NCBI RefSeq assembly: GCF_020382885.2
Contig: NC_058508.1
Location: 7,060,055 to 7,124,054, forward strand
Direction of reading: 5' to 3'
DNA from: Scatophagus argus
Lineage: Eukaryota; Chordata; Actinopteri; Scatophagidae
DNA: 64,000 bases
Shown here: in pieces, positions 17,801 to 64,000 of the stretch
Numbering within the stretch: position 1 is the stretch's first letter
Layout: every line of letters starts with the position of its first letter
Made by a program: the position numbers and the translations under genes
The notes under the pieces: model-generated
Seen by the model: the letters and a program-made list of their open reading frames with translations, nothing else
Database searches by the model: none
Told to the model about the DNA's origin: nothing

Positions 17801-20800
17801 CTCCACCTCTTCCTCCTCTGCGCATCTCCCCATTATAGTCACTTATACCTCTCTTGTCTCCTTCCATCTTTTTGTCAACACTTGGGTCATCTCCCTAAGA
17901 AACAACAATTTTTTGACAGGACAGTAACAGAGGCCTCATTGACAATCCATCCATCATAATAACTTTAATTAATTATATTATTATTTTATATATATAATTT
18001 TTACAATTCTAATTATCAATGTGGGTGAAAGTTCTGATTAAGAGCATTTTGATTTAAAAAAAAAAAGACAGATGACAGATAAAACATTTGAAATTGCATT
18101 TCTAGCTGTTTTCAATAGCTAGAAGTTTTAAGATTATTTTTTCACAAAACATCTTACCAGAAGACCCATGTTTGAAAACTGACGTGACACTGGGTTCATC
18201 CAGCTGTCCCCTCCTCCACTCTTTAGAAAAGAAATGCAGACATTCAAAAGTCAGTCAAAAAAAAAGAGAAAGGGAAAATAACTCAGTACTGTGGAAAGTT
18301 ACTAAACAAACGTCTTTGTCTCAGTACAAAGAACCACATGAGACCATGTATAGTTTGTGTCCCAGACCCTCCTTTTCCCAACCTTGATGTTGCCTCTTTT
18401 CCCTCCATGAGTGTGACCCCAGCCTCCAGAGTTGAATGAGGAGCTGCTTCCCTGGGAACCAGTGCTGTTCCAAACTGCTCCACCACCATCATCTTCCTCA
18501 TCCCAGCTGGGGTGACGAGAGGCTGAAACAGAGCCTTCTCCCTTCCCACCCCAGCTTTCCATTGACTTGGCACCTGCAGCAAAATCAAATCAAATGATTA
18601 TGACAATGTTGGCAGTCATTTCTCTACATTTCCTCTGTTGGAAAAATGCTGAATATCATTCAGATTGAAAGATGTGAACATTTATTTGACGACATGACAT
18701 TATAATGTTAATTTGAGACCCAGCAACATGTCTCAGAATGAAAGGAGAGCATCAAGAAAGTGTAATATTTTGAATTGTGCACATTTTTTTCTATTCTTAC
18801 CAGGTTTACCAGGGTTAGGCGAAGGGTTACCCCAGCCAGATGCCTTGGGAGGTTCATCTGGATCACCCCAACCTGTTGCAGTATCTGACACCTGGCCCCA
18901 AGCAGCTGTACCATTATCCACAGACTGTGCACTTCCTCCCCACATTCCTGGACCTGGAGATTAAAGAAATTGAACACTGCCATTTAGAATGTGCTGAAGT
19001 GAAGTTAAAGGTGGCATTCTAAGAGCAAGCACCTATGAGGTGTAATGAGGCTGAAATTAATATTAATTAATACTATTAATTAATATTGCGGTGCTCTGTC
19101 ACTACTTCTAATATAAACTGCTGTCAGAGTACAGAAATGCAGTACTTTAACACTTCAAATGCTGATGCTCACTCTGCCTTAATTGTAGCTTGCCAAATGC
19201 ATTCAAAAAAAAAAAAAATTGTACACCACATGCTTACCAACTGCAGCATTGCTTGGGTTTGTGTCCCTGCTGTGCTGCATCCCAGGCTGCCTTCTAGGTG
19301 GTTGTTGCTGTATGGATGGTATAGCCTGCGGACCGTGGCTTTGGTCGGGTGTAGCACTGTTTTTGTCCCACAAATTCACATTCTTGTTGTTGTAGCGGGT
19401 TGGGTCTCCCCAAGCTGAAGTGCCATCATCAATTTCCATTTTGCGACTGATGGACTGAGGGGAAGGTTCTTCCCAGCCACTGGGCTCCAGGGAGTCACCA
19501 CCACCTCCAGAGATTTGGGGGATTGGGCCCGAGGTCCACCCTGAACTTTGGTTCTGATTCTTGGATGGTGGACCTCCAACACCAGACCGACTGCTCCACC
19601 CTCCTTGCATGGGAACTCCTTGTGGTTGCTGGCCCTGCGATTGGTGCTGCTGTTGATTTGGGGCTTTCATTGGTGCCACTTGGCTGTTTGGTATCTGTGC
19701 TGCTGCTGTGTGTGGCTGGGCACTCCCCCAGTCTTGGTGGGATTTGCCCCCACCTACATCTCCTCCTCCCCATCCTCCTCGCTGAGATCCCCCTTCTTCC
19801 AAATTACCCCAGGAAGATCCCTCGTCAGAGTTGCTTCCACCTCGGCAGCGGCCATCACCACTCCCACCTCTGGATATAGAATCTCTCTGTCCCCAGTCTC
19901 CACCCCCTCCACACTGTCCTCCCCAGCCACCTGCCTCCCCTCTTCCAGTTCCCTTCCATCCTCCTGTCCGGCTCCGTTTATCCTCTGTACCATCCGTCCA
20001 CCCACTCCCCTGCTCTCCAAAGTCTCTCCAGTTCCCTCCTCTACCTCGGTTATCCCCCCATTGCTGTTCTTCAGTCCCCCAACCTTTGCCCTGCCTTTCG
20101 GTTGGGAGTTCACCCCAGCCTCCAGCAGCCTTCCCCTGGTTGTTATCCATATCTTCTTCTGGCGTTTCTGTGCTACCAGTCATGTGAGGACCACAGGTGG
20201 ACTGTGTAGCACCACCATCCCAGCCATCCCTCACTGTGGCAGGGCCAGAGCTCAGGCTGGTCGTGTGACTGCCAGCAGATAGTTCATTATTTACCGAACT
20301 GGTGTTAGATGGGTACCCTGGGCCGCGACTAGTGGTAGTGTTCATTGGTGTTGATGAGAATGCAGAGGAAGATGAAGTGCTTCTTTCATTCCTATTTCCT
20401 ACTCCTCTTGTGGTGTCCAGGTCCCAGGCCACATTCTGTCGGATCTGGGTCTGCCCCCAGCCTGTGTTAGACAGAACCCTGGGGTCCAGATCAGATCGAT
20501 TGAGCATGCTGAGTAAGGCCACTTCAGCACCGGAATTCTTGTCGGTATTGTGGTGTGCAGTCGAGGCTCCTTCCCGCTTTTGTCTGTCATCACTCTCTCC
20601 TCCACCACTTCCAGCTATGGACCCTCCTCCGCTAGAGGATGAGGGTCCTGCACCTCCAGTGCCTCCACCCAGCCCACCCCACTCCCCACCTGCACTGTCC
20701 CCACTTTCTGTCCCTTTCTGATTGTCCCATGCTTTTGTCATAGTTGCAAACTTTGGTGAGGCAGGGTCCTGCAAAACGCTGCCACCAATACCTATACTGC

Positions 20801-23686
20801 CTCCACTACTGCTGCTGTTACTGCTCTCATCTCCTATTCCACCCTCTATTGCTAAGTTACTTGAACTTGCACCTCCCACTGTGCCAGCCCAGTCTGCTTC
20901 TGAACTGCCTCCTTCCCACACTCCCTGAGATACCACTGGGGTATTTGAGTCATCATCGTTTTCCCTGCCCCACCCTGCCTTGTCACCCTGGCTACCAAAA
21001 CCCCACACATTCCCTTCCTGCCCCTGAGCTACAGTCCCTCCCCCACCCCATCCATCCACCTGTGAGGCACCTCCACTGGGGTCAGGGGACACTGGAGGCA
21101 TGGATCTCCAAGAAGAAGAGGCAACAGAGGAGGAAGTGGAAGAGCCAGAATTATTACCACTCCCTTCTGCTTCAACACTAGCAACCTGACAGTCCCTCTC
21201 ATCGCCACCTTCTTGATTTGGTCCTGCTCCTCGTGCTTCTCCACCTGAACCCAACTCTGGCCCAAGGCCACCTAAGTGCTGCTGCTGCTGTTCTCCACTG
21301 CTGGCTCCCAGAGCTGTCTCAGTGTGCTGCTGATGGAGACCAGTTTGATTCACAGATGAAAGAGAATGGGAGGAGATGAGGGTGGTGCTGGCAGAGAATG
21401 AGGAAGTTGGAGTAATGGACGAATGTAGTGGAAGGCCATCGCTAGCCGAAGTTGATGTTCCACCCTGTACCAGGGCAGGCCAGGCGGAGGGGTTCATGCT
21501 GGGGTTGAAATTGGCACCAGGGACACTACTGCTGCCACTCACAGGGCTCTCCTGAGGCCCAGGAAGATGGGAGACTTTGGAATTGTAAAATGCTGCTGAT
21601 CCTAGCCCTGCCTCCACCTGAGAGGAGGTGGAAGAGCCCCACACACCAACACTTGACTGAACACATTCATTAAGCGAGGAAGAGGAGGAAAGAGGAGAAG
21701 AGCGAGGTGAGGAAGGATTGTCCATGTTCCCTGCTCCTCCTCCTACCGCTCCTCCCTTCGGCTGGATGTTTCTCTCACTCCATGAGGCACTACTGTTGTT
21801 GTTACCGGGGCTGTCTTGCTCCTGCACCTCTCCTCCAGCCCCATCAGAACCCAATTTGGCCCCACCTAGGATGCTAGGCCAGTCCCCCAGGTCAGTCCCA
21901 TCCACAATCACCTTCCCGCAGCCCTGAGAAGAGGACGGGCTGCCAGAGCCTGCCCCCCAAGTGGAATTTGCATAAGTTGAAGTAGTAGTAGTAGAAGACG
22001 ACGACGAAGACAGAGCAGCGACACATAATGAGGATGAGGAGGAGTTGGGGGGTACGGCAGAGGATGAATCCAGGTTTGAATCTATACAGACAAAATTAAG
22101 AGCATTCATTTTAAGTGACAATTAATGACTTGCAGATCATATCAACTGGCAGGGCCATTACTCACTGTTGCAGAATACAACTTCACAGCTATGACTATAG
22201 TGTAGTTATAATGTCAGCTGGATGGATTTTATGCTCTATAAAATCTTTTTCATGGCTACTGGATAAAAACTGTAAAATGCAGCGCAGTGTTTGTAAAATT
22301 CTTGGACAGTTGCTACTTAAAGAAAGAAGATGGTGGACTACATATCAAACTTGTTCATCTATTTTCATTTTGAAACATCAACCTACCTGTGCCTCCAGCT
22401 GTGTTTGCATTGGGGTTATCTGCTCCCTGTGAGGAAAGAGGCGGGGTGGCTACCCAGCCACTGCCTCCTCCTGCACCCCCTTCCCCTCCTCCTACTCCTC
22501 CCCCCAGCAGCATGGAGGACAGCGGTGGCTGACCCCTCTTCAGTAGCACTTTGTGATCCTGCTGGCAGCGAAATCTCGGTGGAACCTCTCTGGACATGTA
22601 TCGCTGCTGCTGGGAGGTCTGGCTTCCAGAGGGGGAGGAGGAGGGCTGTCCGTTGGCCACAGCAGTCCGCTGCTTTGCATTGTTCCCGCCACCAGGAGGA
22701 ACTTGTGCAGAAACGCTGGCTGCACCAGGACTTGGGGATGAGGGGGCAACAGGGCCAGGGCTGGGTGACACTGAGCCTGGGGTGGTGAGCAACTGGGAAC
22801 AGGAGGGCTTGGCTGATTCTGGCACTGAAATACACAAATAATGAAGAATGTGAATTACTGATAGAAAGAGGATGTGGGTATGTCACTCAACTGTAGGTAG
22901 GTTATGTTACTCTATAGTCAACAATTTAAAAAAAAAAATAAACAAAAAGGTTAAAGTATCTTAAGTATGAGCAAGCATGTGCAAAATCCTATAAAACAAT
23001 TCCCTTGGTCATCACAATACATTATATGTATTACAAGAAAAAGGAACTGCTGAATAAAGCATAAGACGTAGACATTATGTCACTGACATTACCTTGATAT
23101 CTTTATTGAACAGAGAATGATAAATGACTGTGATGATGACAAAAACAACAGAAAAAAATAACATACCTTTGATTTTCTGCTCTGACACCTAAAATAGAGA
23201 TAATAAGTAAATCAGATGCAAAGCAGAAGAGAATTTGCTCATGGAAAAAAGAACTACACAAAAAGGCTACACTTTTTTGGGGTTTTCACATCACTACCTA
23301 AATACATCCGTGTAGACCTTAATAGGGTTCAGTCTTGCTACTGAAACTTACAAAATACAATATCTGCACGCTGTTTAAGCAAACATGATCACATGACACT
23401 GGATATTCATTTTACAATTTCTAAATATGAAAAATCCATCCCAAAGCTCTATAAATTCAGTTACTTAATGAAGCAGTGAAAATGGCAAACTGGTTTTGAA
23501 ATGTATCCGTTCCAATTCAACAACAATACTGGCAAAGTAAGTGGTAGTAATATGTAAGTGGGAATATCACACAGATTCTTTGCAAAATATATATATGAAA
23601 AAAATCAGATTTTTGGCAACACTGTTTACCTTCTGAGAGCTTTCCCTTTTCTTTTTATCTTCTTTCTTTTTTTTCTTGTCTTCCAT
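8818..23686 (-). CDS. tnrc6b: trinucleotide repeat-containing adaptor 6B (GW182 family)
   Basis: Scaffold of the microRNA silencing complex. It binds Argonaute through GW repeats and recruits PABP and the CCR4-NOT and PAN2-PAN3 deadenylases in the cytoplasm. Exons: 23630-23686, 23167-23188, 22387-22824, 19238-22081, 18801-18953, 18383-18573, 18158-18220, 17736-17894, 16835-16972, 15956-16138, 15642-15746, 15031-15241, 13441-13593, 13070-13237, 12569-12715, 12175-12267, 11694-11909, 11383-11453, 9488-9627, 8818-9391. They total 2041 codons, every junction in frame. Order: lysine-rich start [13 protein letters not shown]; motif [22 protein letters not shown]-rich region (residues 173-1235) with Argonaute hook [15 protein letters not shown] near 712; Q-rich stretch near 1425; silencing region with [18 protein letters not shown] near 1790-1865; tail [14 protein letters not shown]. 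The REVPPRF segment and the tail fit TNRC6B rather than TNRC6A or TNRC6C. The start is the first ATG after an in-frame TAG. Confidence 0.95.
9488..11453 (-). CDS. tnrc6b: tnrc6b RRM-encoding exons
   Basis: Exons 11383-11453 and 9488-9627, continued by 8818-9391, encode a non-canonical [15 protein letters not shown], then [20 protein letters not shown], then [14 protein letters not shown], then [16 protein letters not shown]. In GW182 proteins this fold does not bind RNA and forms part of the silencing domain. The intron between 9627 and 11383 is 1.75 kb of A/T-rich sequence with no recognisable gene. Confidence 0.9.
14179..14716 (-). mobile_element. degenerate Tc1/mariner-type element fragment
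   Basis: About 538 bases inside the long tnrc6b intron. Imperfect inverted ends are present: CACTACAAAAACAACAGTAT at the left, and the complement of a right end reading CACTATATAGACAAAAGTAT. Both are flanked by TA (14177-14178 and 14717-14718), the target site of Tc1/mariner elements. The minus strand encodes the transposase C-terminus with the motif [17 protein letters not shown], a relative of the NPIEHLWDEL block that holds the last catalytic acid. Here that block reads NHIQ, so the acid is lost, and frameshifts follow. It is internally deleted and inactive. Confidence 0.8.
17101..17624. mobile_element. hAT-like non-autonomous element (copy 2)
   Basis: This 524-base element in a tnrc6b intron has ends TAGAGGTGCACTGATTG (left) and, read inward from the right, TAGAGATATACCAACTGGCC. 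The flanks acagatac (17093-17100) and gcagatac (17625-17632) match at 7 of 8 bases, an 8-bp target duplication. The interior is A/T-rich and has no transposase frame. The left end resembles that of the element at 2060-3159, so both likely belong to one family mobilised by the same hAT transposase. Confidence 0.75.
19238..22081 (-). CDS. tnrc6b: tnrc6b exon 4: GW-rich Argonaute-binding region
   Basis: A single 2844-base exon with no stop in frame, coding for 948 residues rich in S, G, W, N and Q. Dozens of WG/GW pairs are visible, together with the Argonaute hook [18 protein letters not shown] and the conserved block [21 protein letters not shown]. Tryptophans in such tracts insert into pockets of the Argonaute PIWI domain. 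The exon is bounded by the acceptor TATAG before ATTC at 22081 and the donor GTAAGC after 19238. The long open frames on the opposite strand here are a by-product of its repetitive codon use. Confidence 0.93.
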
Positions 23687-42442: not shown

Positions 42443-45400
42443 GACTTTGCGGTACCAGTGAAAACTGGCGCTCCGGCCTTCTCCTCTTCCTGTCACTCTC
42501 CTTCCAGCGCAGTGAGGTTTGAGTTAACGTTTGAATTACAGGGTGTTACATAGCTGTCTAAATCTGAGCTCCACCACACATTTGAACTGCAGACATAGAC
42601 AGCTTTACCAACCACTGCACATCAATCTGCAGATACACAAACAGCTCAAGAAAAGCAACTACTGCTAACCGCATGCTAAAAGTGGTTAGCTCTGAACAGG
42701 AACACAGTATTATATTGTAATAGAGCAGTCATAATAAACACAAATACTTTTGGCATTCAAAGTCCACGTCTGTCTGAATATTTATGTGTGTATATTTGAG
42801 CTCACATTTCAGCATATGTACGTACTTCTTTTTGCACTTTTGTATGCTGTCTAGATGGGCAGACGTGGAGATGATGTCCAGGGGTTTTCTGTGTGCGTCA
42901 CCTTCTGATGGATCACATTTCCCTGGCTTTAGGGACTCCCATTTCAACTGACATGAACAAAACAAACACCGGGATGAAGGCCATTCCTCTTGGGAATGAC
43001 TACAATGAAGTAAGAGAGTGGGAGAGGCAGTGGTCAGACTGTTCTATTTCAAGGTCTGCACATCAATGTTTGTTTGTAATCTTACAAACAGAATATTTTC
43101 AGGGTTATCTAACAAAGATATTAACAACGGAGTTTATATTATGAGAACATGGAGATCTGAGTTATTCATTAAGATTACTAGAAGCCGTTTAGTTTCTTAA
43201 TGAACCCCTCATTATATTTGCTCTCTGTTTCCATCTCCAGCTCTTTCAGCATCTGAATGTGTGCTCCAACCATAAAACAGTATGTCTGGAAGTACAATGG
43301 TTGGTTTCAGATCTCACCAGCCCACCCAGACATCATCATCTGTCTCCCCATCAGGCAGACATGCAGGGATGAGAGATTAACCCTTGCTGAGTCCCAGTGG
43401 CTCAGGCAAACTACAGAATTTCCCTTGCTCCAGCTGTTCACTGTGGTCTGCTGTGAGGAAGTCAAACATGACTCTGGTATGTCACTGAACAATATGAGAA
43501 GACCACTCACACATCACTGCAGAGAACTGTGCTTCAGCATAATGGTGCTCAGTGTATGTTGCCTTGAGACCTCTTAAAGCAAAGTCTCTCACATTCCCAG
43601 TCACAAGGCAGGCCTCATTTATTATGCATAAATTGAATAAAGATCATCAACCCTCATGAATTAACAACTTTTTTCTTTCATGACGGACAGATGTACAGAC
43701 AAATCTGCAAACCCTGCCATATGAAATATACATTGTTCAGTATGCTCCAAAGTGTACTGCAGTGAATTGAGGATATTTCAACATATGAATGCTTTGGAGC
43801 ACATTCCATATTTTATACATTTTTTTTTCAGATTGTTGTATAAAGATGGGAGGACTGTAAACAGCATATTCGAAATAGTTCTATTATATTTAGATGAGTG
43901 AGTAGTTCTGAATCTACCTAACAGTAGCTAAGAAGTGGATTTTGTTGCAGTCCTGGATTCAGATGTCCCTGTGGATGATACAGAAGGTAAGTATTTGATC
44001 CTCAGTAGAAGGATTTCGAAGTATTCATTTAAAACTCCTTGGATATACGGTAATTAACAAGGCATAGCCACTGCAGGGCTGGTGAGATACCATGTTCTGC
44101 ACCTGAACATCTGAAAATCGTACTCCTAAATTTAGATCAGGCTTCCAAAAACAAAATGAACAGTCACAGTTTAGTGACTGTAAGTGTTTCAGTATGTGTC
44201 TGTGTGTTTTTTTATTGTAGCCTAGAAAGCACTGAGGAGTGACATTACAATGCTCTATTGTCTTTGGGCCAACACACAGCTTCCTGACGGCTCAGAATCC
44301 ACAGAAACAGGAGCGCAATCCAAACAAAGACAGAGCGCTTTCATGTACCCCTTAAAGCCAATCCTCCATATATCAACATCATCTTACAACCCCCAGCTTC
44401 AAGTGAACAGTCCCACTTTTCAAACAATGTTCTCCAAATGCACATCTGGGTTTTATGACAGCAGGAGTGTAACCTGGATCTGAGCCAGTTCCACAAACAA
44501 AACAAAAAAAAACACTCTGACTGACGGACAGCTACCATGAAGAGTTCATCTCTGGGGGAATTGAAATCAGTTTTGCACAAATTCATACCTGACTTGTTTG
44601 AATGTGTTTTTACTGGATGAACCCATTTGGTCAGAGTGACAGCAGTGAGCTGTTGAACGCAAAATGGGTTCTGCATTTGAAAAGAGTTAAACTCTTTGGC
44701 TCCCTCTCCGATTTGTGAGCAAGTCATTTCCTGTCAAGAAATGCTTGTTCTGTCCTCGAGACTTCTCATCCTGTTTCACTATAACACGCCTTTCTCTCAA
44801 GCTCCTTCTCTATCTTCCTCCCATGCCCGTGAGCTTCTTGTTTTGGTCTCTTTGTCCTCTTGTATCCATGTTGGATCTCTTTCTTCCTGTGTTACATCTG
44901 CCTGTTACTTTACCGTATTCCTACCATTACTGAAATGTGCAATAATCAGAAATTATGATTAAAATAAAAATATACTAAATTTGTGACAAAAACATTTTCA
45001 ACATTTTTTTATCACTCCCTGTATCTTCTGGTTTTCTCTTCCTCACCCCCACATTGACATCCACATTCACTGCTCATCAGAGCGTCTGAGACAGCAGTTG
45101 TCAACAAGAGCTGCTTGTATTTCCACATTCACAGCGTAGATGATCCCCAGTTTCTAAAGTCTGTTCTCGAGGCCCAGACCCATCTCCATGTCCCCTCTCC
45201 TCTCCTTCTCTTCACTCACCTTTCCTGTCCCCTTGTTCCAAGTTGCTGCCTTTCCTTCCTCTTCTGAGTCCACTGTACTCTCTTTTCCATTCCATCTCAT
45301 CCCTCAGTCAATTCAGCCTCTCCCACGTTGCCACTTTTTCCAACATGTCATGGGATATCAGTTTCTTTGTTTGTCAAATATACATTATAGCACATCAGGT

Positions 45401-45469
45401 TGGACATTTGGATTTATGAATTTCCTGACTATTTTTTTCTCAAGATGCAATTTTTATTTATTTATTTTT
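39061..45469. other. gene-poor spacer between card10 and cdc42ep1 (part 1)
   Basis: About 6.4 kb of A/T-rich DNA in which I recognise no conserved protein on either strand. It contains pyrimidine-rich stretches (40480-40620, 44760-44930, 45190-45310) that make meaningless open frames. Undetected enhancers or noncoding exons of cdc42ep1 are possible. Confidence 0.5.
42402..42439. repeat. (CA)n microsatellite
   Basis: Roughly 38 bases of uninterrupted CA repeats in the spacer upstream of cdc42ep1. Confidence 0.9.
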
Positions 45470-46662
45470 TTAGGATCCTGAAGACCTGTGCCAGCCAGCT
45501 GTCTCCTGTACTAGGACATCTTTCTCTGAGTCAAGAGAAAGTTCCAACACTGTGGAAGACGTCCTGTCTGGTTCCAGTCCCCAAGAGGTCGAGGCCATCA
45601 GATCCGGCAGACTACAGACCAGTCGCCCTCACATCTCATGTGATGAAGGTCCTGGTGAGACTGGTCTTAGCCCAGCTGAGGCCGCAGGTGAGGACGTTTC
45701 TTGACCCCTTGCAATTTGCCTACCAGCCCCATTTAGGAGTTGACGATGCTGTCGTCTACCTGCTGCAACCACCCATTTGCATTTGGATGGTGGGGGGGGG
45801 CACTGTGAGGATCACATTCTTTGATTTCTCTAGTGCTTTCAACACCATTCAACCTCTGCTAGTGGGTGAGAAGCTGCGGGTGATAGGTGTCGACGACGCA
45901 AGGATCTCCTGGATTACTGACTACTTGACAGGCAGGCCACAGTTTGTCTGTCTGGGCAACGTCTTGTCTGATGTGGTGGTCAGTGATGTAGGAGCTCCAC
46001 AGGGAACTGTGCTTTCTCCCTTCCTCTTCACCTTATACACCACTGACTTTCAGTACAACTCTGAGTCATGTCACCTGCAGAAGTTTTCTGATGACTCAGC
46101 TGTTGTCAGGTGTATTAGAGAGGGAGAGGAGGGAGAGTACAGGACACTGGTGTACAACTTTGTAGAGTGGTCCGAGCAGAATCACCTGGGACTGAATGTC
46201 AACAAGACCAAAGAGATGGTGATCGATTTCAGGAGGAAGAGGACGCCTTCGCAGCCACTACGGATCAGGCGGGAGGTGGTGGAGGAGGTGGAGGACTACA
46301 GATACCTGGGAGTGGTGATCGGTAATAGACTGGACTGGACTTCTAACACCGAGGCTGTGTACAAGAAGGGGATGAGCAGACTCTATTTCCTGAGGAAGCT
46401 GAGATCCTTCAACGTGTGCAGCAAGATGTTGGCGATCTTCTACCAGTCTGTTGTTGCCAGCACCATTTTCTTTGCTGTGGTGTGTTGGGGCAGCAGCATC
46501 AGAGCCAGCGACACCAACAGACTTGATAAAATCATCAAGAAGGCTGGCTCTGTACTTGTTCTCAAGCTGGAGTCGTTTGAGAGGAGGATGCTGAACAAAC
46601 TGTTATCCATCATGGACAATGAACATTATGTCATATGCCACTTTTTATTTTGCTATTTTTAA
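45400..46662 (+). pseudogene. truncated LINE reverse transcriptase reading frame
   Basis: A 420-codon open frame, uninterrupted but incomplete at both ends. The N-terminus begins in unrelated host sequence and the usual C-terminal arginine/lysine-rich tail is replaced by NEHYVICHFLFCYF. The lack of stops suggests a fairly young insertion. It is not a host gene. Confidence 0.8.
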
Positions 46663-51543: not shown

Positions 51544-52261
51544 CTGGCCTTAAGTGAACTGAATGAAAACACAGAAGTCCCATCTACACAGAAGCCATCG
51601 GCAGACTAAGTAGATTGAAGAAGACAGAGAGCAAGTGTGGGAGTCAGGGAGGGAGGGATGACAGAAGGGATTAACAGCTAATCCAGTGCGTGGACAATCC
51701 TGGAGGAGCCTTATTTTTCTTCCAGGATCATGTAGAGAAAAAAACATTTGCTGGATTACCTTACTTTATTGGCCTTTTCAAAAGAGCATCACCCTCCTTC
51801 TTCCTTCTTCTTCTCTAAGGTCTGACGTCTTGCTTACAGAGGGACCAGGGACCAGAACAAGGAGCAAAGTGACAAGCTTGGTCTCAGGATGCCTCATGGA
51901 CAGTTGGGTGCCACACATGGATAAACCTCTTTATTGAGAGATGGTACACGGCAGTGGACCCCCTCTCTCTCTGCTTGGAGTTTGATGAAGTCCATTGCAG
52001 AAGAACTCATTGGACGAGATAGACAAGATCCTCTCAGAAGTTGGGATCTGTAGGACACAGGGACTCACTGCCAGCAAGCTACAGAGTGGAGACACTACTG
52101 TTTTCTTTCAGCTGTGTTTTGGGAATTGTTTGTTTGAAGGAGCAGGATTACAGAAATTATCGAATGTTTCTGAAGCAAAGAGAAGCCATGAATGTAACTG
52201 CTTGAGGACAGAGCATGCAGTGTGGATGAGATGCTAAAGTAAGGTTAAAAACCACAGACAA
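51544..52261 (+). other. candidate large 5' untranslated exon
   Basis: Acceptor CTCTCTGTTATCTTAG before 51544 and donor AA then GTGAGT after 52261 bracket about 718 bases with several short upstream open frames. It lies in the right orientation to be an alternative cdc42ep1 leader exon. Unproven. Confidence 0.3.
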
Positions 52262-53243
52262 GTGAGTAACACTTCAGACATAAACTCAGGCACTAATCCT
52301 TGTAGACTAACTTGAAACCCAAGAAATAGTAAGAAGGAGTGGCTCAGTCTGGTGGAAACAGGAATATAGAGTGACTCAAATCAGCAAGTGTGCTGGTGCC
52401 ACATACTATCCAGTGTCACTTTGTCTTTAAAATTCTACACACTGAAAAACTTCTTTTGCTAAGTTTGGACAAAAGGCAAATTAAAATACTTGGTTAAATA
52501 CCGATTTTACAAGGCTTCCTGGTGATGTGATCTTCTGAGTGTATGCAAGACAGTTCTCAAGACAGTCCTCAAGACAGTTCTCCAAGTCTAAAAATGTAGA
52601 AAATTAAGTGAACATTGTCAACATGAGGATGTTTCTTTCCTTTTTGTGATACAAACCAGACGAGTTGTTTGGCTGAATTGTTTCTCAATGTATTTTCAGT
52701 TGTGGTTAGACTTTATTTTTCTAAACTCATCATTCATTGAACCAGATCTTAACCAAATAAGCCCAACCAGCACCAGACTCTCCAACCACACCAAGTGTGG
52801 TAACCAGAAGAAACAAATTATGTCGCTGTAATTTATGACCAAAAGCTGTTCTTATGCGGGACAAGTGAGCTGAGCGTTTGGTCATATTGGGCAGACGTAC
52901 AGTACTGGCTGACAGGGAGGCCAAAAACAGAACAGGATGGAGATGGGGACTTGACTCTGCATCCATATTGGCATGTTTCAGTGTAGATTCAAAAGCAAAC
53001 CGTGGGCAGACAGTGGATGAATAGCTGGCTCTGGTCGTGTGGCGAATGGATTATACACACATTCTCTGCACGATGAACAACCACATGTTTGTGTTTTCTC
53101 TTCTCACTGTCTGCTCATTTTAATTTTTTTTCCTCTGCTTTTACAGTGGATCCTAAACTGGAATTTAAACTCAACTGACGCATAGCCAGAGCTCAGACAT
53201 TTTCATTCAAATTAAAGGGAAATTACAAAGGTTTTCTGCCACC

Positions 53244-56200
53244 ATGAGTCTGGGAAAACTGCCAGGGATCAAAGGCCTTGTGTCTGGCTCTCAGGGGAAA
53301 CGTCGCTTCAAGAGCGAGCTCTCTGTGGACATGATCAGCCCGCCGCTGGGTGACTTCCGACATACCATGCATGTTGGCCGTGGTGGGGATGTGTTCGGTG
53401 ACACTTCCTTCCTGAGCAACTATGGGGGCATCAGGGAGCCAGGAAGTCCAGATTCTGCAAACAGCTCCAAGACTGGGTTCTTCACACGTACTTTTCGGCA
53501 CGTGCGGAAGAACTCTGTGCCGCGGCCACGAGGTGGCTCCCGTGACTTGACATCCCCTCCACCAGACATCTCACCCATCATCAAGAATGCCATCTCCCTG
53601 CCCCAGCTGAACATGGACTCGCCCAATGGGTGCCTACAGAGGGTGCTGTTCCCCAGCTCCATCAGCTCAACAGATGGTTCCTTCTGCACATATGGTAAGA
53701 TAACATAAATACTCAGCACAGGATAGTATTTATGTGAAATCAAATCAACTTCAACTGTGTGTGTCTTCACATCCCATCTCACACAACAGTATATGTCAGT
53801 AAGGCTGCACGGTTAAAGGTGGTCAAGTGGGTTTCAGTTCATTTTGCATCAGAACCCAGATTTGACCTCACTTTGCAAACTAATGTGTTCAGTTACATTT
53901 TATGTGTAGATTCTTTTTTTTTTTTTTTTTTTTTTTTGGATAAGATTCAACAAAGACTGCAATAGATAAAGCATTTAAGCATCAACAGTTGCTAATGCTA
54001 ATTTAATTAGGAGGATTTAAAATATATGTGTGTGTGTGTGGGGGGGGGGGTTATTTTTTATTGGTGTTGTTATCTTTAGGTTATGGTAAACTGGAGGAGA
54101 AAATAATAAGCAAAAAGCTCCTATAAGATCCTGCAACCCAGACAGTATGATCAGTGACCTAGTTATGGGCTGCAGCAGAGGGGCAGAGCAGCACTGCATT
54201 AGTCACCATGACGGGGGAGAAGCCCAAACCGGTGATATACTATATCATTACAGTTGCAGTTCTCACTCTTCACTCTCCAGCAGACCAAATAGCATAAAAA
54301 GCTGCTGAGCTGACTTGGCACAAACAAGACTATAAATGTCAGCGAACACACAAACAGAAAGGGTGAGGTTGCCCTCTGCCTTTCAACATCATTCCCACAT
54401 TCCTCCAAGACAACCGGCAAACAAGCGGGCTTCTTCTGAGTCATCTGAATTCACCTTGGCAACACCTGTACACAGCGAGGTCTATAAACACAAACACGCA
54501 CAGCTGGTTCAGGGGAAAGAGAGAGATACTTAGTGGGTATTTCCTGTCATGTGCGCAGCATTAAAACACCATTCATTATATCTGCTAACCAATCACAACT
54601 TATCAGGCAGCAGCATGCGTAGCCTGGACTGGAAATCCCCACTCTGTCTCCAGATTCCTTACCCAATTCATAAGGAATTTGAACAAAGTGATGTGGCACC
54701 GGCATAAAGAGCCAGTGAGCTGAAGGATGATGGGAGCCTTTTGTCATCAGTGGGTTTCAGTATGTTCTCCAAGTCAGTATTTCCATCCATCTTTTCATAT
54801 TCCTTCGGTTGTTCTTTAATGAAAACATAATGCCAGTATTGCAAAACAAGGCCTACAGTAGGTACTAATTACATATTAATTATATTTAAAAAAACAAAGT
54901 TCTTATACAAAAATGTAAAATCCAGGTTTTGTTATTGCAAAGAAACGCAACAATTTTTAGTTTGAAAAGTCTGAGGGCTAAACCTGAAATTTGAGGAGCA
55001 CTGTTTCATAACAAATGTGATAAACCTCTGTACAAAGAAAAGCAAGTCATTTTAATGTAATTTTATTTTATTCTTCACAAATTAACAAACCTTTATCAAC
55101 TGATCATCGCTCACTCCATTCTGTACTGTAAAGGCAAAGTAGTTTTTTTATGGCTCAGCTTCAGCCTCTTCAAAGGTTCTTGTAGAGGTGGAAAAGTCTG
55201 AAGAGGTATAAACCTCCCATGTCAATTTCTAGTTTCAGGTCACTTCATATTTGTATAACTGTCGGTCTTGTTGTCCATTTCCACCCCCTCTCTGTGGCAT
55301 CATACTTCTTCATCAGCTCCTCCTGTCTGTCTGTCCGTCCAGTAGGCAGAAAATTCAGTCTGTCCTGATAGGGAAATTTCAGCAGTGCCTCTCTGAGTTG
55401 TTACAAGCTGCCATCTTGTGGTGGAAGAGTTAAATTGCTAGACTTCTGTTCTGGTTTTGCTTACAAGTGTTGGCAGAAATTTACACTTTGCAAAGTCATT
55501 TTAAATTAAAACTGTTGTAAAAACATAACTTTACATTTAAATTCTTCAATGACTCCACTACAAAATCCAACTGCTGCCCTTTAAACATTTCTTGTTACAC
55601 ACTTACATTGAGGTTATTCATTTATGATATAATGCTGTCTTAAAAAGTTCAAGTGTATGTTCTTTTTTCATCCTTGCGACTTTTGCATGTGTTCTGCTTC
55701 TGTCTGTTTGCAGGTCTGCAGTCTGGATTTGTCACTCTCCCTCGTCTCTCTCGTCTTGACAGACAATTTCAAAATGAAGACATCCAGAAAGGGTCTCCAT
55801 CAGACAGTGGCGGCATCACACTGACACGCTCAGACTCCCTCACTTCGTTCACTGTAGACCTTGGCCCTTCCCTTATGACTGAGGTACTGAGCTTGATTGA
55901 CAACCCCAGCGGCCTTCAGATGTCAGATCACAGTCAGGCTCCAGGCGAGGAAGAGAAAGGAGAGGGCGAGAAAGAGGAAGAAGAGGATGACAGCTCTCTG
56001 ACACAGACGCCTGTGCAGAGCCCCGGCTTGACGTCACCCAACTTTTCCATGGGTAGTGGGTCATTCAGCAGGAACATGAACAACAGGGGGCACTCCTGTA
56101 GCTCTACCTGGACAGAGCAAGAGGAGGAGAGGAGGTCTCTGAGGACACCAGACGTGTGCGCTGGGTCTCCTCAGAGAGCCGAGCCTGCAATGGAGGCAGA

Positions 56201-56360
56201 GAGGTTCCAGAGGGCAGCTGACGTGCTGTCTCGTCATTATGGCGGAGAATCACTCACAAAGGGAACGAGGATGAGCAACTGCACCACCTCCCCTGCCCGT
56301 TCACACAGCCGTAAAACACCGTATGCCTTCTCTGAGGAGGAAGAAGAGATTAAAGTCTAG
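53244..56360 (+). CDS. cdc42ep1: Cdc42 effector protein 1 (BORG5)
   Basis: Binds GTP-loaded Cdc42 and septins and shapes actin and septin filaments at the cell cortex. Two coding exons, 53244-53694 and 55714-56360, give 365 residues. The leader part of the first exon starts at the acceptor at 53146/53147, and the start codon has a strong context (GCCACCATGAG). Residues 31-45 hold the CRIB motif ISPPLGDFRHTMHVG, followed by GRGGDVFGDTSFLSN. The second BORG block is SPIIKNAISLPQLN near 110-123, and the third is RSDSLTSFTVDLGPSLMTEV, early in exon 2. An acidic stretch and the C-terminal EEEEEIKV follow. The N-terminus MSLGKL matches CDC42EP1 rather than CDC42EP4, and the card10 neighbour agrees. 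The 2.0-kb intron contains a poly-T run near 53912-53938. Confidence 0.95.
54951..55035 (+). repeat. cdc42ep1 intron segment, duplicated downstream (copy A1)
   Basis: About 85 bases closely match 58371-58460, including GAGGAGCACTGTTTCATAAC and GTGATAAACCTCTGT, with a small insertion in the second copy. Together with the 56534/59272 pair this marks a tandem duplication. Confidence 0.75.
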
Positions 56361-56402
56361 ATGTTGAAACTCTATGAAAGAGAACAGAAACTGCACTTGT
56401 CT

Positions 56403-56408
56403 AATAAA
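56403..56408 (+). terminator. cdc42ep1: candidate cdc42ep1 polyadenylation signal
   Basis: AATAAA 43 bases after the stop codon. If it is used, the 3' untranslated region is very short. A longer transcript would run toward the Tc1 element at 56650. Confidence 0.4.
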
Positions 56409-56649
56409 ATCATAAAAACTGTCCAGCAAACTGAGTTCTTGGTTCAGTTCAAGTCAGAGAGGCTGAACATTGACATATTCTGTTGTTCCTCCATAAAACA
56501 TTCTTCCATTTATCACATGTATGGACATGTGGGCAACCATCAGATCCTGGTCTTTGTTCGGTTTCTGCAGTTTGGATGTTTGATGCCGATCTTGACCCTG
56601 GACCTGATCCCCTCTGCAGTACATTGCTGCCGTGACGTGGAGAGAAATG

Positions 56650-58210
56650 CAGTGCATCCGGAAAATATTGACACCACTTCGCTTTTTGCATATTTTGTTA
56701 TGTTACAGTTTCTAAAATGGATTAAATTCATTTTTTTCCCTTAAAGTTCTGCATAAAACACCAGATACTGACAAAGTGAAACAAGTTTGCTTTCATTTTT
56801 TTGCAAATTTATTAACAATAAAAAAAACAAAAAATATAACATGTACACAAGTATTGACACCCTGTGATCAATACTTTGTTGAAGCTCCTTTGGCAGCAAT
56901 TACAGCCTCGACTCTTTTTGTGTATGATCCTATAAGCTTGGTACACTTATTTTTGGGCAGTTTCTCCCACTCTTCAATGCAGAACCTCTCAAGCTCCATC
57001 AGGTTGGATGGGGAGTGTCAGTGTAAAGCCATTTCCAGATATCTCCAGAGAAGTCTGGCCTCTGGCTGGGCCACTCAAGGACATTCACAGAGTTGTCTCG
57101 AAGCCACTCCTTTGTGATGTTGGCTGTATGCTTAGGGTCATTGTCCTGTTGGAAGATAAACCTTCACCCCAGTCTGAGGTCCAGTGCACTCTGGAGCAGG
57201 TTGTCAGCAAGGATGTCTCTGTACATTGCTGCAGTCATCTTTCCCTCAACCCTTACTGGTCTCACAGTTCCCGCTGTCGCAAAACATCCCCACAGCATGA
57301 TGCTGCCACCACCATGCTACACAGTAGGAATGGTATTGGCCAGGTGATGAGCAGTGTCTGGTTTCCTCCAAACACGATGCTTGTCATTCATGCCAAAGAG
57401 TTCAATCTTTGTTTCATCAGACCAGAGAATTTTGTTTCTCGTGGTCTGAGAGTCCTTCAGCTGCCTTTTGGCAAACTCCAGATGGGCTTTCATATGCATT
57501 TTACTGAGGAGTGGCTTCTGTCTGGCCACTCTACCATACAGGCCTGATTGGTGGAGTGCTGCAGAAATGGCTGTTCTCCACAGAGCAATGCTGAAACTCT
57601 GTCAGAGTTGACTCTGTCACTCAGTTTAGTTGGGCAGCCAGCTCCAGGAGGGCCCTGGTGGTTCCAGACTTTTTCCACTTATGGATTATGGAGGCCACTG
57701 TCCTCTTTGGGACCTTTAATGTGGCAGAAATCTTTCTGTACCCTTCCCCAGATCTGTGCCTCGACACAACACTGTCTCAGAGGTCTACAGACAATTGCTT
57801 TGACTTCATGGCTTGGTTTGTGCTCTGACATGCACTGTCAACTCTGAGGGCTTATATAGACAGGTGTGTGCCTTTCCAAATAATGCCCAATCAGCTGAAT
57901 TTACCACAGGTGGACTCAACTCAAGTTGTAGAAACTTCTGAAGGATGATCAATGGAAACCGGATGCACCTGAGCTCAATTTTGAGTGTCATGGCAAAGGG
58001 TGTGCATACTTATGTACATGTTACATTTTTTGTTTTTCGTTTTTAATACATTTGCAAAAAATTCAAGCAAACTTGTTTCACTTTGACATTATGAGGTATT
58101 TTGTGTAGAATTTTGAGTGAGAAATTTGATTTAATCTATTTTGGAATGAGACTGTAACATAACAAAATGTGCAAGAAGCGAAGCAGTGTGAATACTTTTC
58201 AAATGCACTG
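56650..58210 (-). mobile_element. full-length but inactive Tc1-like transposon
   Basis: About 1560 bases with imperfect terminal inverted repeats of roughly 200 bases, beginning CAGTGCATCCGGAAAATATT at the left and, read inward, CAGTGCATTTGAAAAGTATT at the right. TA follows the right end; the left flank reads TG, probably a mutated TA. The transposase lies on the minus strand. It starts near 57811 with MKSKQLSVDL and is stopped at once by TGA. Later pieces are KILWSDETKIELFG and VWRKPDTAHHLANTIPTV. Several frameshifts and stops make it a pseudogene. It sits about 290 bases past the cdc42ep1 stop codon. Confidence 0.9.
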
Positions 58211-58370
58211 TAAGTGGCAAAGATGTCTGACCTGCTCTAATTCTATGCATAATAGTTGACTAAATATACTATAGGGCATTGAAATTTGAATGGACTTTGA
58301 GTTTTATATTTTTTCACACTGTATTCACCACATCCTTATCATGTTTAAGAGCAAAATGTATTTTACATAA

Positions 58371-58460
58371 CAATTTTTAATTTGAAAAGTCCGGGGGGTG
58401 AAGCTAAACCTGAGAATTTGAGGAGCACTGTTTCATAACAAATGTGATAAACCTCTGTGC
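58371..58460 (+). repeat. duplicate of cdc42ep1 intron segment (copy A2)
   Basis: Second copy of the segment at 54951-55035, in the same orientation, about 3.4 kb downstream and beyond the Tc1 element. It carries no coding sequence. Confidence 0.75.
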
Positions 58461-59214
58461 AATGTAAATAAATTAACTGGAATCAGGAATCACTGTGTTG
58501 TACAAACTTAGCGGTTAACAGTTGTGCAATTACAGCTCATATTCCTCTGAGGTCTATGTGATGACTTCACCTGTAATATGTTTATAGCACCCTTTACCAA
58601 ACTTTTATCAGTATTAGCTAAGTCTTTATTTTCTAAAGTGATAAGGCTGATGTAATAAAGGCCTGATTTGCAGTTTGTCGTGTCATTTCATGAAATTTCA
58701 ACTTTCATTTTCAAAAACATTTTGTTAAACAAAGACATTTTAATCAAACTCTGTCTCCTGATAATAATTTGTTCTAATTAGTAAGTACACGTCCAACAGG
58801 CACAGAGCAAGTTTGGCACCCAGCTGGAAACCTCATGGCTGCCTGTTGAACTCACTGCATAACATTTATTGGTTGGGTGGTGACACACTGATGCCCTTTA
58901 TATATGAAAGCTTCACACTATCTCATCTAAAAATGCTTACTTTTCCCCTCTTATCTTGCTCTGCAAAACTGAAACTCATCATAAAATATAGGATAAATCT
59001 TTATGGTTTCCCTGTTGGGACACCTAGTTCTTGTAACAGCACAAGGACAGAAATGAGGACACATATAGAATGTAAGCTACATAAATGATTGACATATCAC
59101 CTTTGTTTGAAAGGTAGAGAATACAAAAAGTTGACGTGAATGTACTATAAATATATCATTTTTGCAAAAACAGTAAAAACCTGTAGTACTGAGTTGATCA
59201 ATAACCCTTGCTGC
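58461..59214. other. spacer with no recognised gene
   Basis: A/T-rich DNA between the two duplicate segments A2 and B2. It may be diverged intron sequence of the duplicated cdc42ep1 piece. No coding signal was seen. Confidence 0.45.
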
Positions 59215-59362
59215 TTTCAGATGTCAGGTTAGGAAGACAAAGGAGGGGGAGACGAAGAAGAGGACAACATTCAACCATCTTATCCTGGTTTGTATTCAGT
59301 TTCTGCAGGTCTGATGTTTGATGGTGATTTTGACCCTGGACCTGAACTCCTCTCAATCATTT
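59215..59362 (+). pseudogene. degraded duplicate of the cdc42ep1 exon 2 and 3' region
   Basis: Positions 59272-59362 align with 56534-56625, just past the cdc42ep1 stop codon; shared runs include TTGACCCTGGACCTGA and CAACCATC. The preceding 59218-59270 (CAGATGTCAG, then a GA-rich stretch) resembles the acidic-tract part of cdc42ep1 exon 2 near 55917-55990. The rest of that exon is missing and no open frame remains. It is best explained as a decayed partial tandem copy. Confidence 0.55.
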
Positions 59363-60022
59363 TATGTAACATTAATATGAAAATATTTCTGCATTTCTCT
59401 ATTTCAGTTAATAAAAAATGTCTGCCAGCCAATCACAAATAACGTCAATTAAAAAAGAGAAAAAGAGGGTAGATTATAAAGGGACAAGCTGATGGTGGTC
59501 TGTAAATTCTGTAAATGAAAATGAATTTTTTTGTGCAGCAGACATATTGTTTCTACCCACACATGAATGACCAACAGACACCATGAACATCAGCTGGGTC
59601 TTCATTTCCTTCGGGATCCATATTGTTTGGTGAATTAATTGTTATTCCATAAGACAATATGATGCAATATATACAAAATAAAAGCATAAAATATAGTATG
59701 AATGATTTCTTGTTAAAATTGTTGCATTACCTTCAGAATATTTAATGATTCTGGCAATCCAAATATGACCATAAACTAACAGTGAATTGGAATTTATAAG
59801 CTCATTCTGAAGTTTGCGAAGTTCTCATATATGTAAAGTTTTATGAATTGATTGTTTTATTTATTGGCCAGTAGGACAGCAGAACAATGTCATTGTCATT
59901 GCCACTGACCACTTCCACATTGCACATGATAACTTCAACAGTCAATATAACACTTTAGAGAAGTGCAGCTTAAAAAACAGATATCCATTAGAAAGTATGT
60001 AACTTTGTAAATTGCATTGTTC
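59363..60022. other. spacer left of the palindromic promoter
   Basis: A/T-rich sequence lying downstream of the left-pointing promoter copy. I searched the minus strand for GVIN-like exons or any conserved protein and found none. Confidence 0.5.
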
Positions 60023-60091
60023 ACCTGTCCTCTCTGCTGTTCAGAAATCTGCCTCTGCCTTTCTTTTATACTAGTGAGGGCATAAAGTAAA

Positions 60092-60105
60092 GTGAAAGTG
60101 AAACA
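60092..60105 (+). promoter_or_regulatory. ISRE-like element, left arm (mirror copy)
   Basis: GTGAAAGTGAAACA, the exact mirror of the site at 60250-60263. It could act as a second enhancer site for the GVIN gene or drive leftward transcription. Confidence 0.7.
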
Positions 60106-60249
60106 TCTATAACTCCTGATTTGAGTCATGAAACATCCCATGAAACAACCTCAAACTTTCACTTTGAGTGAAAGAGTTAGAGATGTTTCAAAGTGAAAGT
60201 TTGAGGTTGTTTCATGGGATGTTTCATGACTCAAATCAGGAGTTATAGA

Positions 60250-60263
60250 TGTTTCACTTTCAC
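60250..60263 (-). promoter_or_regulatory. ISRE-like element, right arm
   Basis: TGTTTCACTTTCAC fits the interferon-stimulated response element (AGTTTCNNTTTCNC/T) except at its first base. It lies about 20 bases upstream of the TATA box of the GVIN promoter, where STAT1/STAT2/IRF9 or IRF dimers would act. Confidence 0.75.
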
Positions 60264-60284
60264 TTTACTTTATGCCCTCACTAG

Positions 60285-60292
60285 TATAAAAG
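60285..60292 (+). promoter_or_regulatory. TATA box of the GVIN promoter
   Basis: TATAAAAG, followed about 30 bases later by the expected start region near 60317. The mirror copy, reading CTTTTATA on the plus strand, is at 60063-60070. Confidence 0.7.
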
Positions 60293-60316
60293 AAAGGCAG
60301 AGGCAGATTTCTGAAC

Positions 60317-60439
60317 AGCAGAGAGGACAGGTTTGTGAGGGGCAAACTTTCAACTCACATCGTGATCTTCAAAGTCACTGGAAGGATTGAAAGAAGCAGC
60401 ACATCTACATGAAACAGGCAGAACTACTAAAACACAAAG
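60317..60439 (+). other. GVIN first noncoding exon (approximate start)
   Basis: It runs from the inferred start site 25-30 bases after the TATA box to a consensus donor (AAAG then GTGAGT, boundary 60439/60440). It would splice to the acceptor near 61093, shortly before the start codon at 61111. It includes the end of the inverted repeat. Confidence 0.6.
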
Positions 60440-61110
60440 GTGAGTTTAGTGATCACTGATGTAGTCATTCATTGTACAATTTTAAAAACCAAAATCAGAT
60501 TTAAGTTTAGATTAGAGCTTAGTTACTTTGAACAAATTAACCTCTGTTGAAATCAAACTCAAACATTGCCAGACCCTCACATACATTCATTATGGTTTGC
60601 AGCGGACTAGTCTAGTCATAAATTAGCAAAGTTATGAATTATAAAATCATATTTATAAAAATTTAACAAAATTTTCATTTGGCCTATGTTTCAAAATGTT
60701 TTGCTTTTGTATAATAGAAGTGCTTCATCACTGTGACTTAAAAAAAATGTTTCTGCTGTTGTTGTTCACCTTGGAATCAGGTTGTCAGCACAAAATGCAT
60801 AAACCTTTTAATTATTATCTTCATGTGATGTGTGGTGCCGAAGCCCTTCATCAGATATGAAAGAAGTGCAGAGACACATCTTATTAAGTATCTGTGCAGA
60901 GGGCCGCCTGACAGGTCATGAGACTACAGAGTTATAAAATGAAAATTTGTGTAAAATGTAGCAATTTTCCACAAAGATTAATAAGATTTTTATTGTTTCT
61001 TGTTACTCATTCAGTTTGAATGGTGATTCATACTTTGAGTGCAGGTTTATCATAGTATGTGTCTAACTGACTTTGTCCTATGACTCTATAAAGCATGAAG
61101 AACACATAAG

Positions 61111-64000
61111 ATGGAGAACCATGATGACAATACAGATGCTGAAAGAGAGTCTGAAGTGAAATCTGTAATATCTTCTGTGACAAATGAACAGGGTAATATA
61201 AAAGTTTAAAAATAAACCTAAGACATTGAACAGTCTAATTACTTTGTTTCTATGCTGATCATGAATATTCTGATATTCCTTCATGGCTCTGCAGTTGGGA
61301 TGATGGAGGAGAGTGAAGCTGAAACCAAGGTAATAATAATATCTCTTCAATTTTTTATCATGTCATTTTAAAACTTTTCTTGTTTCTTTACTAATTTTAT
61401 CACTGCCCGCTGCCAACTGTTTCACCTTGTTTTTATTTCATGTTTTATTGGTTATTGGTAATTGACTTTTTCTCTTCTCTCTTGTTTATGTGTCACAAAT
61501 ACACTCTGTCTTCAGTTTCAAAACACATCTTAGGTAGACTGGAATTATTATTATTAACAACAACAACAACAATAATAATATATATATCTTTTTTTTCCAA
61601 CACCAGCTCACTGACAGATTATAGATTGTACTTGTGTTGGTGATCTTCTTATTCTTAATCTCAGTGACTTTAACCTGATGAACCACTGAGATTAAATGAA
61701 CTAATTTGTTTCCTTAGTGTGATCCAGCAAATGAAGCAGGTGATGGAGGAGAATCTGAAAATAAGTCAGAAACATCTACAACCAAGGAGAAAGGTAATGT
61801 TTTATTAAATTATCAGATATCTTACAGTACATTGCACTGACTCTCTTAAAATGCAGTTTCTGATTCCGCATCAGGTGAATTACATACGAGTGGAAACAAG
61901 GATCAGGTAAGAAGTTTGTATTTTTTTTCACAAACTCCTTAGGACTACTTTCTTTATAACCCATTATTATTATTTTTGTTATTCTTGTTCTTCTTATTAT
62001 TATTATTCTTAATGTTATTATTGTTATTATTGTTATTATTGCCTACAGTACAGTTTTATTTTATTATTTACAGCAGTCAGTGAAGATTTCTCAAGAGATC
62101 AACAGGAAAGATGAATATCAAAGAGAATTTAAAACTCTGCTTGATAGACTTCACCTTCAGGACAAACATCAAAAGAAGTTGACACCAGGAGATTTTCTTC
62201 AAATAGGTCCACCTGTGAAACAGGACCATGACACATGTGAGAAAGATCTAGCTCATACTTTTCTTCAGAGGTTGATGATGTTAGACTATAGAGCCAGATA
62301 TATTCCTGTCAGACAAGACAGTCCTGAGGTCAGCCATTCAAATCCTGTTCCAGAGTCTGACACTGTTGAGACAGATGACAATGACTTAGATGCTCTTTTT
62401 GGCTCCACTGTAGACTCTGATCAATCAAAACAGACTCATGTGCATCCAGTAGATGTTCAGATGGCAGTGTTTCACTGCTCAGACAGTTTTTTTAAGCAGA
62501 ACATGGTTACAAAGCTATCACAGTGTCAGTACGCCTTACCTTTACTTGTTCCTGACCCAGTCACAATGGATATTTACTGCCCTCTGTGGACTTTCAGGCA
62601 AATAATGAAAACATGGAAAATAAATCAAACCAAGACTAATTCAAAGAACAGCATGATGAAGAGCATGCCCATCTGCAAAGCTGAGACACCCATGGTGTCA
62701 TTTTTCCGCCTGGGTTCACTCTCATTGTCTAAATCTCAGCTGATGAACTCTTTGATCAACGAGCGTCACAACACCTTCTTCCACAGAAACTGCCCAGGGA
62801 GCACCAAGTCTCGCCATCTGATGGATGGTGTGGCAGAGATTGCCTGGTACTGCCCTGCTGGGAAAGCCAATGATGCCTTCACTGACTGCATTGCCTTTAG
62901 CAATCTCCATGGTGATGCTCTGTTGATCAATGAGCAGCGTGACATACTGATTGAGAAATCTTCAGTCAGTGTTGTTCTTGTACCAACTCTGGAAAAAGGT
63001 GACAAAAGTGCAACAGTTATCGCATCCCTTTTCAAGTCTCCAAAACCTCTCATTGTTCTTATTGGTGATAATGTTCATGGTGCAGTTCAGATGAAAGAGG
63101 GAAAATACAAAATGGGGTTAAAGGACAGAAGTCAGTCAGATATTTCTGAAGAGTTAAAGAAAATCATTCACAACATTTTGTCTGGCCCACATACATCCTT
63201 CAAGCTTGAATCTATGACTGAGACCTCTGGAATCAGAGTGGACGAAGATGACACAAAATGCCTAAACGGGAAATCTGCAGCTGTGAAAATGGTGACGTTG
63301 CTTCAGGGAATGGATGTTTCTAGGATCAAAAAGAAATTTCTCCCTTGCCAAGGCGAACTGTGGCACGGGTGGTGCATAACAAACAAAGAACAGTATCGTC
63401 TAAAAGGAAACATTGAAAAGGAGAAATGTAAGAAGCAAGAGGAACTGATGAAAATACGACAAGATCAGTGCACAGCTTCCTGTAGTCAGCTGATGAAACT
63501 GTTCATTGAAAGCCTCACATCTTTGAAATCAACAGAAAGAGACTATTTCTTGAAATGGACTCAGATCTTGATAGATGCCCTCTCCACAGACGATTTGTCT
63601 CTAATTCTTCAGAGCTATGATGAAAAGTGGTCGGAGGTCTTGGCTTTGAAGAAGAAACATGACAAATCTGATCAGGTAAAAAGGAAGCAAATTGAGCTCG
63701 ATCAAATATCAACAAAGCTACAGTCAGCAACTTTTGGCTTGGAGCACATCTTCAGAGAAATGGGACAGATCTATGAAGCCCACAAATCTTTGCAGAAACA
63801 ACCAGAGAGGGGACAGACTGACTGGTCTAAATTCCCAGAGCTTGCTGCAGAGCTGATGATATCAGGTCACCCCATGGAGCTGATGGACGGCGATGCAGGT
63901 CATGTGCCTTTAACATGGATCTCTGGTCTATTAGATCAGGTCATCAAGAAACTGGGTGACAAGAAAGTTTTTGTTTTGTCAGTTTTAGGTGTGCAAAGCA
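61111..64000 (+). CDS. gvin1: interferon-induced very large GTPase-like protein, 5' part
   Basis: Family of giant interferon-inducible GTPases (GVIN/VLIG, related to URGCP), dynamin-superfamily proteins linked to cell-autonomous immunity. Exons: 61111-61192, 61295-61329, 61718-61793, 61857-61906 and 62074 to the window edge, 723 residues so far, all junctions in frame. The first four encode an acidic, low-complexity N-terminus (MENHDDNTDAERESEV). The large exon is open for 1927 bases: HTFLQRLMMLDYRARYIPV, VFHCSDSFFKQNMVTKLSQC, YALPLLVPDPVTMDIYCPLW, VSFFRLGSLSLSKSQLMNSL, MDGVAEIAWYCPAGKANDAF, then a charged helical stretch. It ends with KKVFVLSVLGVQS, the strand that leads into the GTP-binding P-loop, which is not in the window. 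Start choice: first ATG in frame after the acceptor near 61093. The 62074 acceptor is a CAGCAG tandem, so one Q may be optional. Confidence 0.9.
61955..62045. repeat. TTATTA-type simple repeat in GVIN intron
   Basis: Imperfect TTA/TTG repeats lie just before the acceptor of the large exon. A further A/T-rich simple repeat lies near 61545-61590. They overlap the polypyrimidine-tract region of the intron. Confidence 0.7.

Follow-up and report, generated by a model that had tools for sequence, protein, structure and literature searches.

Gene content of the window

The window, which is the whole stretch of 64,000 nucleotides analyzed, belongs to a contig of 22.96 Mb, one of the 48 that make up a genome of 571 Mb, and the genome stretch that overlaps it was identical across the 9,055 shared bases. 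The right end of the window is occupied by a gene of the URGCP/GVIN type, with the following features:

61111 to 64000 and beyond the window, plus strand: URGCP/GVIN-like gene, recognized by open frame, stop codon and Pfam
61111-61192, 61295-61329, 61718-61793, 61875-61906 and 62074 to beyond the window, plus strand: coding exons of the URGCP/GVIN-like gene
60318-60439, plus strand: putative noncoding exon 1, with its start placed about 30 bp past the TATA motif and a donor GT at 60440

The coding sequence starts at the ATG at 61111 and, after a giant last exon, finishes with a stop codon whose last base is 66852 when the numbering of the window is continued, giving about 1,667 codons in total. 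The edges of the small exons were picked by eye; eight distinct combinations of exon edges were tried; two of them keep the frame open, and one of these two has GT at the varied donors. The Pfam analysis of the predicted protein revealed the families URGCP (2e-105) and URGCP_GTPase (5.4e-43), and the gene is apparently intact. The URGCP family is that of GVIN/VLIG, the interferon-inducible very large GTPases.

Other elements were found further to the left. A Cdc42 effector (BORG/CEP) gene in at least two pieces is located at 53169-56360 (plus strand; PBD 1e-7, BORG_CEP 3.1e-9), and a decayed Tc1/Sleeping-Beauty-like transposon at 57320-57776 (minus strand) lies between this gene and the palindrome described below. 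The transposase matches HTH_SB (3.2e-17) and HTH_Tnp_Tc3_2 (3.4e-9), two further pieces match no family, and the inverted repeats of the element (56650-56831 and 58026-58210) are 73-84% complementary. Two pairs of direct repeats near the 3' end of the Cdc42-effector gene (54988-55056 and 58415-58483, 69 nt, 86%, spaced 3.4 kb; 56534-56615 and 59272-59353, 82 nt, 83%, spaced 2.7 kb) suggest an old duplication or dispersed repeats. A reverse-transcriptase frame at 45391-46662 (RVT_1 5.9e-20, 423 aa between stops) is probably a non-LTR element. Long Gly/Ser/Trp-rich frames at 8818-22882 (minus strand) resemble a TNRC6 (GW182) gene, and no Pfam family was matched at 19206-22121 and 8821-9462.

Structure of the palindrome

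Upstream of the URGCP/GVIN-like gene lies a palindrome whose arms (60023-60167 and 60188-60332) are exact reverse complements at 145 of 145 positions around a spacer of 20 nt (60168-60187). The original prediction was right about the exact palindrome, its sizes of 144 and 22 being one pair short of the 145 and 20 found here. This is the longest among the inverted repeats listed for the window. The background for a scan for perfect arms of at least 20 with spacers of up to 100 comprised 273,797 non-N bases, from the window and the next 210 kb downstream, and three perfect inverted repeats were recovered, with arms of 145 (the palindrome), 38 (an AT repeat) and 30 bp. Because the next perfect non-AT inverted repeat has arms of 30 bp, the palindrome is not a chance match.

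Identity is lost abruptly at both outer ends of the palindrome. Local alignment of the 500-bp outer flanks, with the left flank reverse-complemented, gave a score of 27, which was reached by 25 of 200 letter shuffles, and the 2-kb outer flanks gave the same score, reached by 34 of 50 shuffles. A larger, decayed inverted duplication is disfavored, since these alignments were no better than those of shuffled letters. Folding of positions 60000-60360 as single-stranded DNA predicted one long hairpin of -183.6 kcal/mol, whereas shuffled versions had a mean of -38.9 (z -32) and none of 100 was as good.

Whole-genome DNA searches with the promoter, in which the best candidates were scored and common words skipped, found a single place only. 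An exact-pattern search of the viral contig collection gave no match, and none of 4227 Rfam families reached the gathering score in 52000-64000. A literature search covering titles and abstract openings found no mirror-duplicated ISRE promoter.

Promoter motifs in the two arms

Motifs were matched at consensus level, with AGTTTCNNTTTCNY assumed as the ISRE consensus. The features of the palindrome are the following:

60023-60167, minus strand: left arm, with the promoter module in inverted orientation and reverse-complementary to 60188-60332 at 145/145 bases
60168-60187, unstranded: spacer of 20 nt, which with the first bases of the right arm forms a diverged copy of an arm-internal element
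60188-60332, plus strand: right arm, which may be the original promoter of the URGCP/GVIN-like gene, continuous with the putative exon 1 and its GTGAGT donor
60092-60105, minus strand: ISRE-like motif of the left arm, 1 mismatch to the consensus
60250-60263, plus strand: ISRE-like motif TGTTTCACTTTCAC of the right arm, 1 mismatch to the consensus
60155-60166, minus strand: inner IRF-E-like motif of the left arm, 1 mismatch
60189-60200, plus strand: inner IRF-E-like motif CAAAGTGAAAGT of the right arm, 1 mismatch
60122-60128, unstranded: AP-1-like TGAGTCA of the left arm (consensus TGASTCA)
60227-60233, unstranded: AP-1-like TGACTCA of the right arm (consensus TGASTCA)
60063-60070, minus strand: TATA motif TATAAAAG of the left arm, consensus level
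60285-60292, plus strand: TATA motif TATAAAAG of the right arm, consensus level
59856-59865, minus strand: AATAAA twice, overlapping, at 173 and 177 nt past the putative start of the left arm

All these motifs of the right arm are mirrored exactly in the left one. The ISRE-like motif, with one mismatch, ends 21 bp before TATAAAAG and beside the URGCP/GVIN-like gene, which at consensus level is the arrangement of an ISG promoter. A promoter-like module in each arm, with IRF/ISRE and TATA motifs and next to a GVIN-type gene, had been predicted, and both the motifs and the Pfam matches agree with it; the designation "interferon promoter" has to be corrected, as the module resembles the promoter of a gene of an interferon-inducible GTPase family, not that of an interferon gene.

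Two of the seven ISRE matches of the window at one mismatch are inside the palindrome, as are six of its 12 partly overlapping IRF-E matches at up to one mismatch. These six places all have one mismatch, some overlap the ISRE, and half of the ISRE and IRF-E matches of the palindrome are a product of its symmetry. Both TGASTCA (44 matches, counted over two strands) and TATAWAWR (70 matches) occur often in the window, and a consensus-word scan of the palindrome stretch found no GAS-type site.

The promoter is also internally repetitive. Positions 60174-60190 match 60240-60256 at 16 of 17 bases, and 60190-60200, with the sequence AAAGTGAAAGT, is reverse-complementary to 60256-60266, which makes an 11-bp inverted repeat within one promoter copy, so that a single copy is partly self-complementary.

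Direction of transcription

Transcription is expected to start at 60318 (plus strand) and 60037 (minus strand), about 30 bp past each TATA motif. The original prediction considered divergent transcription; no GVIN-like match, recognizable gene or long minus-strand frame adjoins the left arm, so a pair with a gene on each side is not recognized at this locus. RSAD2/CMPK2 is a divergent interferon-stimulated gene pair with a shared promoter. The palindrome shares with pairs of this type an ISRE-bearing divergent geometry, and differs from them in its exact mirror identity and in having no recognized second gene.

Splice and poly(A) signals were sought as simple consensus words, not as scored models. 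On the right side the donor is at +122 and the first A(A/T)TAAA at +894, whereas on the left side AATAAA is found at +173/+177 and the first GTRAGT at +1183. Promoter direction has been attributed to U1 and poly(A) signals (Almada 2013 and Ntini 2013, as discussed in a passage of PMC3882496). On this account, the left arm, followed early by poly(A) signals and not by any nearby 5' splice site, may fire a short unstable antisense RNA at most.

Transcripts able to fold into a long hairpin had also been proposed. The starts predicted from TATA spacing are about 15 nt inside the outer ends of the arms, so the RNAs of the module itself would carry only about 15 nt of the palindrome and no long hairpin; only read-through from outside the palindrome would yield a long-hairpin RNA, and the idea is therefore weak.

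Origin of the palindrome

The origin considered probable, with some reserve, is one local inverted duplication by foldback or template switch of an interferon-responsive promoter, in which the right arm drives the gene and the left arm is a young mirror copy. A single TATA promoter of the URGCP/GVIN-type GTPase gene would have given rise, once, to an adjacent inverted copy during a single local event of replication or repair, either foldback-primed or by template switch. The right arm would have remained the working promoter, and the left arm would mainly add a second IRF/ISRE/AP-1 cluster about 160 bp further upstream and may also fire the short antisense RNA. ISRE elements are generally orientation-tolerant. 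The direction in which copying ran, its mechanism and every function are our inferences; the left arm is taken as the copy because the right arm is continuous with exon 1.

The local duplication is favored by sharp-ended identity between unrelated flanks, by the junction of the right arm with an open-frame gene and by the failure to find another copy. Template switch or foldback leaves perfectly matching inverted arms that end abruptly and are separated by a short spacer, as seen here. Two repeats at the centre could, if they pre-date the event, have primed a foldback: one is the 11-bp repeat already described and the other consists of 8 bp, CTTTCACT/AGTGAAAG, around 3 nt (60156-60174). The 8-bp repeat straddles the present edge between arm and spacer and may have arisen from the event instead of causing it. 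At the outer ends, inspection by eye showed no clear microhomology.

With no differences in 145 bp, the 95% upper age of the duplication is about 1.0-3.4 Myr, if conversion is left aside and the assumed rates per site and year are 1e-8 to 3e-9. The perfect identity is therefore compatible with an origin that is not very recent.

Comparison with known inverted repeats

Short-range template switches often create perfect inverted repeats, with a templated length in great apes of median 12 and maximum 128 in the figures quoted from PMC7954356, and the same process creates hairpins whose largest pattern, in the part of PMC8794818 consulted here, is 59 bp in rRNA genes. The palindrome is similar to these products of template switch and quasipalindrome conversion in that one event would turn nearby sequence into a perfect inverted repeat. 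However, its 145 bp exceed both quoted maxima, which counts against the local duplication proposed here, and a whole promoter would have been copied.

Foldback-primed inverted duplications at breaks also have a short inverted repeat, a short spacer and perfect arms; in wild-type yeast, two out of three inverted duplications had at their centre an inverted repeat of 5 bp whose spacer was 35 bp long, as given in an excerpt of PMC10622511. Those events are chromosome rearrangements, whereas the palindrome stops after 145 bp, so a foldback origin needs a second switch back. Near-perfect palindromes longer than 100 bp are known in small numbers in human, 783 of 100-200 bp and 718 over 200 bp according to passages of PMC7680136 and PMC7999016. 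The palindromes catalogued there are spacerless and the very long ones are mostly AT repeats, in contrast to the complex promoter sequence and 20-nt spacer found here.

Alternative explanations

An assembly or library artefact, in which a foldback molecule or a wrong join placed a false inverted copy beside a normal promoter, is rather unlikely and is the foremost alternative. Foldback reads make up about 0.55-0.6% of ONT genomic reads (a figure taken from a portion of PMC12870357), interrupted palindromes are known from historic DNA libraries (as mentioned in part of PMC3946424), and the 210 kb downstream contain N runs of 74 and 75, which may be assembly gaps or withheld sequence. Against this, the window contains no N, and no similar object was found in it or in the 210 kb downstream.

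A bidirectional promoter under selection, with the mirror copy kept for a useful antisense RNA or for boosted interferon induction, is improbable. It would agree with the full divergent geometry of mirrored ISRE and TATA motifs, with the share of IRF-E matches in the palindrome, half of them due to symmetry, and with the behavior of salmon VLIG-1, which in a passage of PMC4337061 had the top fold increase among antiviral genes in cells treated with type I IFN plus virus. However, the left arm is not flanked by any recognizable gene or long minus-strand frame, the poly(A) signals on the left come early, and the identity is perfect outside the motifs too, which selection on the motifs does not need.

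A remnant of a head-to-head duplication of GVIN genes, whose identity has been kept by gene conversion, is very improbable. Vertebrate GVIN genes occur in clusters, and the other genome matches of the GVIN-like protein, on C1 (two, about 10 kb apart), C2 and C5 (two pieces in one frame), include neighboring copies. However, these paralogues are only 30-38% identical, which makes conversion between recent GVIN copies unlikely and speaks against the upkeep by conversion that had been suggested; the outer flanks are unrelated, and the 679 residues encoded in the window had no other match in it or in the 210 kb downstream. As far as the protein search indicates, there would be no recent sister gene as source or homogenizing partner. 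In the paralogue stretches L028-L031, which extend just 1.5 kb upstream of the match, and L033, the space between the C1 copies (L032 was left out), eight ISRE-like matches were found (three in L028, four in L030 and one in L033), none of them less than 400 bp from a TATA match, and there was no perfect inverted repeat of at least 18 bp with a spacer of up to 100. The GVIN protein gave one unconfirmed pattern match in the viral contigs and 34 in prokaryote genome contigs, none confirmed, as expected of such collections.

A transposon of the foldback type, or a MITE, having terminal inverted repeats of 145 bp deserves equally little credit: the overall shape, the Tc1-like remnants 2-3 kb upstream and a TTGT that lies directly at the right end and again two bases away from the left end would fit it, but this TTGT, seen by eye, is too short and out of register for a clear target-site repeat, a single genomic place and no dispersed copies were found within the limits of the search, and one arm is the promoter and 5' end of a gene.

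Significance

If the palindrome is an artefact, it calls for caution on inverted repeats in assembled promoters. If it is real, it offers a clean example from nature of a slip in replication or repair that doubled a whole promoter as its mirror image, exceeding in length the longest great-ape template switch in the figures from PMC7954356. One could then test directly whether ISRE promoters that are symmetric in orientation lose direction or gain induction, and whether downstream splice and poly(A) signals alone restore direction. It is also conceivable, as a doubtful extension, that a one-step duplication created a symmetric switch that would fire both ways on infection and respond more strongly or more cooperatively, giving an antiviral GTPase gene a new regulatory state that may still be segregating in the population.
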